From the IMG/VR virus record IMGVR_UViG_3300043427_001988, positions 1 to 64,000 of that record: 64,000 bases of DNA. One strand, given 5' to 3'. Below, piece by piece: positions 8,952 to 10,483 of the stretch. Under the pieces are notes generated by a model, which worked only from the letters and a program-made list of their open reading frames with translations, searched no databases and was not told the DNA's origin. The stretch comes from a virus. Every line of letters begins with the position of its first letter. Within the stretch, counting starts at the first letter, position 1. The translations under genes were made by a program, and so were the position numbers.

Positions 8952-9160
8952 TAAGTTTGTGAAATCCGCTGTAATTGACCGTCTGCATCAACGGTAAAAT
9001 CAAAAGCGTGGGAATCTAAATCAATAAAATCATCACCAAAATCTGTGGGCGTGTAGGTTATTGAACTTAACACTGCACCATCTTGAGCATAGGCAGTTAC
9101 GTCAAAGGTATCAAATCCACGAATATGAACTTGGATGCGAACTTGTTGAATCTGGCTCAT
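8948..9160 (-). CDS. Hypothetical beta-rich protein (70 aa)
   Basis: ATG at 9160 with GGAG 8 nt upstream. The open frame up to 9214 only translates the promoter and leader. The sequence is alternating strands (VRIQVHIRGFDTFDVTAYAQ) with a D-rich segment (DFGDDFIDLDSHAFDF). No family recognised. Class I promoter within the duplicated 115-bp block. Confidence 0.65.
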   Translation of the reverse strand: MSQIQQVRIQVHIRGFDTFDVTAYAQDGAVLSSITYTPTDFGDDFIDLDSHAFDFTVDADGQLQRISQTY

Positions 9161-9176
9161 GTCATTAACTCCGTTA

Positions 9177-9291
9177 CTTAACTTGATTACATTAGTAGTA
9201 TAAACGATATTCATACTGTTGTCAAGAGCAGTTTTATGAGAGTTTTCTCATTTGACAAACGCCCCGGCCTGGGGCACCCCCTACCCCCTAC
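9177..9291 (-). repeat. 115-bp regulatory block, duplicated at 9795-9909
   Basis: 9177-9291 and 9795-9909 align over 115 bp with a single visible difference (gagCagt versus gagTagt). Each copy holds leader, -10, -35, palindrome, GCCCC/GGGGC hairpin and G-rich element. This looks like recent duplication or conversion of a whole intergenic control unit. Confidence 0.9.
9197..9251 (-). promoter_or_regulatory. Class I promoter with upstream palindrome
   Basis: Leftward TTGACA (9225-9220), 17 bp, TATACT (9202-9197). Palindrome 9236-9251, 10 bp upstream of -35. Confidence 0.85.
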
Positions 9292-9296
9292 GCAAC

Positions 9297-9331
9297 GAAA
9301 AAAGACCCGCCCTGATTACCAGGGCAGGTCT
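9297..9331 (-). terminator. Intrinsic terminator overlapping the end of the 55-aa gene
   Basis: Leftward AGACCTGCCCTG and CAGGGCGGGTCT pair and are followed by TTTTTTCG. The stem includes the last codons and stop of the 9316 gene. Confidence 0.8.
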
Positions 9332-9483
9332 GACAAGTCAACAATCGGACTAGTATCAGCAGGGATAATTACATCTTGCTCATCAATCCACTGCTCCCAC
9401 ACTTGCTCAAAGTCGGGGGCGATTTCGTCAACTTGCTCATCCATCATGAAGTCGGTGAGGAAGATAAGTGGTAAGTTTGGCAT
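9316..9483 (-). CDS. Small acidic protein (55 aa)
   Basis: ATG at 9483 with AAGGAG 7 nt upstream; the frame extending to 9558 is leader translation. A hydrophobic start (MPNLPLIFLTDFMMDEQ) is followed by very acidic Asp/Glu/Trp-rich sequence (EQVWEQWIDEQDV). Such acidity is typical of small phage host-interaction proteins, but no function can be assigned. Confidence 0.6.
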   Translation of the reverse strand: MPNLPLIFLTDFMMDEQVDEIAPDFEQVWEQWIDEQDVIIPADTSPIVDLSDLPW

Positions 9484-9513: not shown

Positions 9514-9542
9514 AGTATAGCACACATTGAAACCGGTGTCAA
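9514..9542 (-). promoter_or_regulatory. Sigma-70 promoter
   Basis: Leftward TTGACA (9542-9537), 17 bp, TATACT (9519-9514). The -35 overlaps the stop of the 9539 gene. Confidence 0.85.
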
Positions 9543-9814: not shown

Positions 9815-9869
9815 AGTATAAACGATATTCATACTGTTGTCAAGAGTAGTTTTATGAGAGTTTTCTCAT
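9815..9869 (-). promoter_or_regulatory. Class I promoter with upstream palindrome
   Basis: Leftward TTGACA (9843-9838), 17 bp, TATACT (9820-9815). Palindrome 9854-9869, 10 bp upstream of -35. Confidence 0.85.
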
Positions 9870-9905: not shown

Positions 9906-10007
9906 CTAGTCCTCGTCGAAAAGTTCTGATTTAATCCGCCCGCTAATTACTAAAACAAAACCCACAATACTTACATAACCCATATAAACCAAAATCATCT
10001 CTAACAT
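9906..10007 (-). CDS. Single-span membrane peptide (33 aa) downstream of the tmRNA-like gene
   Basis: ATG at 10007 preceded by AAAGGG about 8 nt upstream, and stop TAG at 9908-9906. MLEMILVYMGYVSIVGFVLV is one hydrophobic segment, followed by a charged tail (RIKSELFDED). It begins about 20 nt after the CCA end of the RNA at 10028-10160 and is probably on the same transcript. Function unknown; small phage membrane peptides often act on host membranes, but that is only analogy. Confidence 0.6.
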   Translation of the reverse strand: MLEMILVYMGYVSIVGFVLVISGRIKSELFDED

Positions 10008-10027: not shown

Positions 10028-10160
10028 TGGTGGAGATGTCGGGAATCGAACCCGAGTCCAAAATGCTTTACACCATTGAAGGTAGGCGGTTTTCGCGTCT
10101 TACCGTGGGCAGTTATCACTACTCACCGCCAAAACACCCTGTCAATACCGTGTCATCCCC
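10028..10160 (-). ncRNA. ssrA-like: tmRNA-like RNA, very short (133 nt)
   Basis: Read leftward from 10160, the 5' end GGGGATGACACGGTATTGAC and the 3' end GGGTTCGATTCCCGACATC plus TCCACCA match tmRNA termini. GGGGATG pairs with CATCTCC over 7 bp including a third-position G-U, the alanine identity pair of tmRNA. The T arm is TCGGG-TTCGATT-CCCGA with an encoded CCA. GTGTTTT and AAAGCAT can form helix 2. GGCGGT/ACCGCC plus GGTA/TACC suggest one H-type pseudoknot. Bacterial tmRNA is about 350 nt with four pseudoknots and a tag frame. Here only one pseudoknot fits, and one frame reads TAG TGA TAA after it. The 5' end directly follows the stop codon of the upstream gene, so maturation would need RNase P. 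Confidence 0.75.
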
Positions 10161-10397
10161 TTATTGCAAATCCAGCGTATTCGTCACAGGATTAAAGTAG
10201 CGCACCGTTTTTGAGCCTTTAGCAAACAACGGGTTACGAATTGGGGCACTAATTAACCACCGCCCATCATCCTGTGCAATAATCGAAAAATCCTCTAATC
10301 GTTGACCGCACATCTTCATCTCACGGTGTGAGAAAAACAGAGGATGATTCTCTTTGGTCAATCGCTTAATCTCGTGAATCGTTGGTCGCTTGTTCAT
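10161..10397 (-). CDS. Hypothetical protein (78 aa) co-transcribed with the tmRNA-like RNA
   Basis: ATG at 10397 with AGAGG 7 nt upstream; the TAA (10163-10161) is immediately followed by the first G of the tmRNA-like RNA. Basic N-terminal helix (MNKRPTIHEIKRLTKENH), then beta-rich sequence (DGRWLISAPIRNPLF; KTVRYFNPVTNTL). No family recognised. Position suggests, but does not prove, a shared role with the RNA. Confidence 0.65.
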   Translation of the reverse strand: MNKRPTIHEIKRLTKENHPLFFSHREMKMCGQRLEDFSIIAQDDGRWLISAPIRNPLFAKGSKTVRYFNPVTNTLDLQ

Positions 10398-10428: not shown

Positions 10429-10483
10429 AGTATACAGCACAAATACCAGCGTGTCAAGAGCAATTTTATGAGAGTTTTCTCAT
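10429..10483 (-). promoter_or_regulatory. Class I promoter of the 78-aa gene, tmRNA-like RNA and 33-aa peptide
   Basis: Leftward TTGACA (10457-10452), 17 bp, TATACT (10434-10429). Palindrome 10468-10483, 10 bp upstream of -35. Confidence 0.85.

Follow-up and report, generated by a model that had tools for sequence, protein, structure and literature searches.

Sequence comparison indicates that the virus record IMGVR_UViG_3300043427_001988 encodes a small tmRNA-like RNA, here termed mini-tmRNA, in which the tRNA-like half is complete and the pseudoknots and tag message of tmRNA have been exchanged for a conserved three-way-junction domain. The gene lies within the window (the 64,000-nt stretch of this record that was analyzed), and the coordinates of its parts are collected in Table 1. 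With a small, conserved, folded domain standing where the message half would be, the RNA probably competes with or bypasses host tagging.

The original prediction, made from the letters of the window, described an RNA far below the usual length of tmRNA, with tmRNA-like ends, a G-U pair in the acceptor stem, a T arm, and an encoded CCA. All of these are present, and the length of 133 nt compares with 374 positions in the family model. A covariance-model search (cmscan) with the tmRNA family confirmed the affiliation: RF00023 aligns across model positions 1–374 of 374 at 72.6 bits (E = 2.8e-26), exceeding the gathering score of 47, and this is the sole RF00023 match across the entire 68,926-base virus record. 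ARAGORN made no call at the locus. A pattern for the tmRNA-specific D-loop and T arm matched once in the window and in none of 100 shuffles. The tRNA-like domain comprises a 7-bp acceptor stem with G3-U70 (a pair kept in 5/5 class members), a T arm, a CCA end, and a D-loop without a D stem; a long P2 helix, 96% paired across five sequences, leads from this domain to the interior. Folding of the window RNA as a single sequence was unremarkable (z = −1.49), so that the case for the gene is carried by the family model and its relatives rather than by single-sequence folding.

Table 1. Features of the mini-tmRNA and its flanks, in window positions; columns refer to the alignment of five class members
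Feature	Position	Strand	Evidence or remark
Mini-tmRNA, whole	10028..10160	-	RF00023 match; four other distinct class members on viral contigs
Acceptor stem 5' strand GGGGAUG, columns 1-7, including G3 of G3-U70	10154..10160	-	Sequence; 100% paired across 5/5 class members
Acceptor stem 3' strand CAUCUCC, columns 123-129	10032..10038	-	Alignment of five
Encoded ACCA 3' end	10028..10031	-	Sequence; 5/5 class members
D-loop region without D stem, columns 8-19	10142..10153	-	tmRNA consensus match in cmscan alignment
T arm UCGGG-UUCGAUU-CCCGA, columns 106-122	10039..10055	-	100% paired; 4 pairs with compensatory change
P2 helix 5' strand, columns 20-29	10132..10141	-	10 pairs, 6 changed on both sides
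P2 helix 3' strand, columns 93-102	10059..10068	-	Partner of P2 5' strand
S1 helix 5' strand GGCGGU, columns 31-36	10125..10130	-	6/6 pairs with compensatory change
S1 helix 3' strand ACCGCC, columns 71-76	10085..10090	-	Partner of S1 5' strand
Loop E / sarcin-ricin strand 1, AGUA, columns 38-41	10120..10123	-	Invariant in five sequences
Loop E / sarcin-ricin strand 2, GAA, columns 67-69	10092..10094	-	Invariant in five sequences
3-bp helix 5' strand GUG, columns 42-44	10117..10119	-	Alignment of five
3-bp helix 3' strand CGC, columns 64-66	10095..10097	-	Partner of GUG strand
Apical loop AUAACUGCC-N7-AGA, columns 45-63	10098..10116	-	12/19 positions invariant in five sequences
Third junction arm, hairpin of 4 bp capped by a six-base loop, columns 77-90	10071..10084	-	100% paired; two compensatory pairs
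TAG TGA TAA, columns 40-48	10113..10121	-	Spans UA of AGUA, 3-bp helix, and start of apical loop
78-codon ORF just upstream of mini-tmRNA	10161..10397	-	Stop codon abuts RNA base 1
Sigma-70-like promoter TTGACA-17-TATACT, upstream of 78-codon ORF and RNA	10429..10457	-	11/12 consensus match; candidate only
33-codon ORF directly downstream of mini-tmRNA	9906..10007	-	AAAGGG before ATG

Other viral contigs yielded four more distinct members of the class, of which three measure 133 nt and one 132 nt. Collection scans with patterns fixing only the T arm and D-loop gave further short tmRNAs, and these included the window-type interior in L015 (with an identical copy in L038) and L044, both 133 nt; L050 (133 nt) came from a scan with the interior core, and the fifth member, L081:11267-11398 (132 nt), from one with nothing but the 16-base core. 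Because each scan depends on fixed positions, either in the T arm and D-loop or in the core, the resulting lists of short tmRNAs are lower bounds. The alignment of the five class members (A4) is almost gap-free. A model built from these members (R1) scores them at 136–150 bits and the next-best short tmRNA at 77; as members match by construction, these scores separate classes and are not independent evidence. Several candidates were rejected as relatives. A short match in L049, a Balneolaceae MAG, ends in ACAA beside a repeated tmRNA 3' end and was left out, a degraded host gene located at an att site being its probable origin. BLAST matches in Stenotrophomonas and Acinetobacter phages are ordinary permuted tmRNAs with tags and not relatives; Pseudomonas SM1, Xanthomonas Rb1, and crAss-like cr50_1 carry permuted forms, and the MrMagoo tmRNA is a full-length form.

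The structure supported on A4 contains 35 pairs, with 97.1% of cells paired and compensatory changes on both sides at 21/35 pairs. Compared with 500 shuffles, four measures of pairing and covariation were never reached and the fifth was reached by 1/500; slid controls of the same structure were only 42–47% paired. RNAalifold, run alone on A4, recovered the same helices and one weak apical helix. The layout proceeds from the acceptor through P2 to a three-way junction, where S1 and a 4-bp hairpin branch from P2. Within S1, opposed 5'-AGUA-3' and 5'-GAA-3' strands lie between covarying helices and match the loop E / S-turn consensus AGUA/GAA (PMC4695836); the module may therefore be expected, from its sequence, to adopt the loop E three-dimensional fold. 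In the 3-bp helix, the column pair 43/65 is C-G in three members, U-G in one, and U-A in one. Among all helices tested on the five sequences, none formed a covarying pseudoknot, and a full PK1-PK4 set is ruled out because 133 nt is too short to hold four pseudoknots. The one pseudoknot that the original prediction had fitted thus yields to a nested three-way junction, which covariation backs; a different partner for the S1 3' strand, columns 54-59, was rejected because that pairing falls out of register across relatives. The same prediction spoke of a "reduced messenger domain"; the messenger domain is indeed gone, but is better described as replaced by a different structured domain.

No tag frame with a resume codon and hydrophobic end is conserved across the five relatives, a conclusion drawn from comparison of their frames. 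All five members have frame 1 stops at columns 40 and 46; stops in frame 2 fall at scattered columns, and frame 3 has none past the core in 3/5 (the window, L050, and L081). In E. coli, the first codon begins four bases after A86 (PMC2481249); applied here, this rule indicates frame 3, whose stop is not kept. The absence of an evident hydrophobic tag, noted from the window alone, extends to the class: no frame retains a tag, and none ends in hydrophobic residues. The TAG TGA TAA run noted at the same time is present in the window but not conserved (TGA is CGA in L015, L044, and L050) and was rejected as a release signal, as it also sits within a structural module.

The mini-tmRNA shares with standard one-piece tmRNA (SsrA, RF00023) the G3-U70 acceptor, the absent D stem, the conserved D-loop and T arm, the CCA end, and the long P2; unlike SsrA, it is 133 nt long, lacks a conserved tag frame, and has, in place of pseudoknots, a three-way junction that carries a loop E consensus. 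It is filed here as a message-free tmRNA variant, because its score and tRNA-like half mark it as a tmRNA relative while two defining features of working tmRNAs were not found. The order of permuted two-piece tmRNA (RF04321) was not observed, the mini-tmRNA having the normal 5'-to-3' order. Tagless tmRNAs have precedents. As described in two later accounts, the tmRNA of mycobacteriophage DS6A extends scarcely beyond the tRNA-like domain and inhibits endogenous tmRNA in E. coli, perhaps through titration of SmpB (PMC11915505, PMC4131195). On that description, the DS6A and mini-tmRNA molecules are alike in being phage-encoded, without a tag message, and intact in the tRNA-like domain, and the mini-tmRNA is set apart by an extra conserved domain of ~65 nt. 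Mitochondrial tmRNAs of jakobids and oomycetes also lack a tag and are thought to aid with incomplete mRNAs (PMC11915505); compared through the literature, they resemble the mini-tmRNA in having no tag reading frame, but are organellar and mostly permuted two-piece molecules.

The best explanation of the mini-tmRNA, held by analogy and with confidence just short of even, is that it can be charged with alanine and works against host trans-translation as a decoy or competitor. The DS6A precedent makes this the best-supported reading, with tag-free rescue a close second on account of the conserved added domain; inhibition is directly documented in the DS6A-like RNA only, and would be carried over from there to the mini-tmRNA. 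Inhibition of trans-translation and tag-free release had both been named as options in the original prediction. As a decoy or competitor, the mini-tmRNA would be released from a short phage transcript through the tRNA-processing enzymes of the host; host AlaRS would attach alanine to it, and host SmpB and EF-Tu would bind it. Host factors are proposed as partners because no SmpB was found in the eight virus records searched, which may be incomplete and do not include G008. SmpB, AlaRS, or stalled ribosomes would then be taken up by the mini-tmRNA instead of host tmRNA and, with no message to resume on, host tagging would be lowered. The loop E domain probably raises affinity for the ribosome or a factor. 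However, an extra domain of ~65 nt with a conserved core is needless for a pure SmpB decoy, and points to a more active role. Tag-free rescue, in which the charged RNA would take over the stalled chain (plus one alanine) and the ribosome would be freed without a tag, is possible though on the unlikely side; exit would come about either through drop-off or through termination, with the conserved UAG/UAA in the core as stop signal. In this way the phage would recycle ribosomes while its own proteins stayed unmarked for degradation. Strong conservation of the core, with the rest variable, is as expected for ribosome contact; UAG and UAA hold one frame in 5/5 members, and the tagless mitochondrial tmRNAs offer a parallel in their supposed help with incomplete mRNAs (PMC11915505). 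However, the UAG consists of the UA of AGUA and the G of a covarying helix, an overlap that gives its conservation a structural reason, and the E. coli A86 rule would place neither UAG nor UAA in the A site, but AUA or GYG (PMC2481249).

It may also be proposed, though doubtfully, that the mini-tmRNA represents a horizontally exchanged RNA family whose tRNA half and loop E domain enter stalled ribosomes and release them with one alanine or none; such message-free trans-translation would be run by the phage and would spare phage proteins from tagging. A tRNA-like RNA acting outside trans-translation altogether, as a loop E platform for a phage protein or as bait for an RNA-targeting defense, is improbable: loop E modules are frequent binding sites, and in two contigs a second, 162-nt CCA-ended tRNA-like RNA follows within 1–2 nt, but the retained G3-U70, CCA, D-loop/T-arm signature, and P2 point to AlaRS and SmpB. 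A very short or unusual tag, among the possibilities raised in the original prediction, now seems highly improbable. A41 with U40 and G42 would fit the U85-A86-purine rule, the frame then reading (GYG) AUA ACU GCC; a stop at column 66 in two relatives gives (A)ITAHGKT and (A)ITAYKQT, and some bacteria have two-residue tags. However, this frame stays open past the core in 3/5 members (the window, L050, and L081); the other frames are not conserved, a hydrophobic ending occurs in none, and in no frame do the five relatives retain a start region together with a stop. The short tag is further disfavored because the TAG and TAA triplets form part of the invariant AGUA/GAA module flanked by covarying helices. 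Hardly credible is a decaying tmRNA fragment or assembly artifact; though the RNA is short and missing its usual domains, and partial copies of ssrA are frequent at att sites, this reading is contradicted by five distinct 132–133-nt homologues on separate contigs with compensatory changes.

The 78-codon ORF upstream of the RNA returned no Pfam or PHROG family, and no family was found for the 33-codon ORF downstream; a homologue of the former lies close to the RNA in L055. Three near-identical promoter-like TTGACA-17-TATACT sites stand ahead of small ORFs in the window (9514-9542, 9815-9843, and 10429-10457, minus strand). Additionally, a G-rich element, GGGGGTAGGGGGT, occurs at twelve window sites, including 9276, 9894, 10508, and 10896; it is also present in L055, L056, L057, and L081, and absent from L058.

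No close named phage was found for the window virus (TerL 22%, PolA 29%). TerL at 69–70% is common to the window phage and G001-G003, and PolA at 67–70% relates it to G001, G003, and G008 (G002 lay outside that search). G004 shares neither TerL nor PolA, and within 16 kb only the RNA itself matched; its RNA is nevertheless 82% identical to the window RNA, versus 63–70% for nearer relatives. As the closest RNA resides in a phage without detected shared proteins, horizontal transfer is the simplest reading, and these data suggest that the mini-tmRNA has spread horizontally between phages.

In L044 and L050 the mini-tmRNA is followed within 1–2 nt by a second CCA-ended RNA. This tRNA-like RNA, exactly 162 nt in both cases (L057:7826-7987 and L058:7498-7659, plus strand), lies directly after the mini-tmRNA; it has 7 Watson-Crick acceptor pairs, a T arm, CCA, and, by eye, no D stem, together with a long P2-like helix and a shared hairpin with a GACG loop. 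ARAGORN and the Rfam tRNA model missed it, and a scan found it in these two contigs only.

Tagless tmRNAs are very rare in the current database, with 9 "standard, no CDS" entries among 97,179. A scan for shorter forms identified tmRNAs of 77–85 nt in 17 viral contigs (L096-L112), representing about ten distinct bodies; all acceptor stems are 7/7 paired with G3-U70, and the Rfam cut-off was passed at 49–80 bits in the 12 contigs scanned. These RNAs are scarcely more than a tRNA-like domain; many lack an encoded CCA, and several lie among tRNA genes. An isolate, Streptomyces phage BRock (KX925554; L116:352-432), carries an unannotated 81-nt message-free tmRNA scoring 64.5 bits. The ~80-nt viral tmRNAs, BRock included, resemble the mini-tmRNA in being phage-encoded and message-free with an intact tRNA-like domain, but their P2 is closed by a small hairpin and they have no loop E junction domain. 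A conserved, covarying, message-free phage form and many ~80-nt forms together suggest that phages repeatedly turn to interference with host ribosome rescue or to rescue without a tag; the mini-tmRNA also makes testable an old question, namely the capacities of the tRNA-like half of tmRNA alone.

Short viral tmRNAs of 122–125 nt were also found (L002:1727-1851, L022:354-475, and L003:3424-3546). These match RF00023 and are, like the mini-tmRNA, short and without an evident tag; however, their interiors differ, and model R1 gives them 63–77 bits versus 136–150 for the mini-tmRNA class. By eye, L002 and L022 look to retain the first pseudoknot. One further viral contig holds two different permuted tmRNAs (L016:8151-8446 and 9078-9439), plus tRNAs, inside 1.3 kb.
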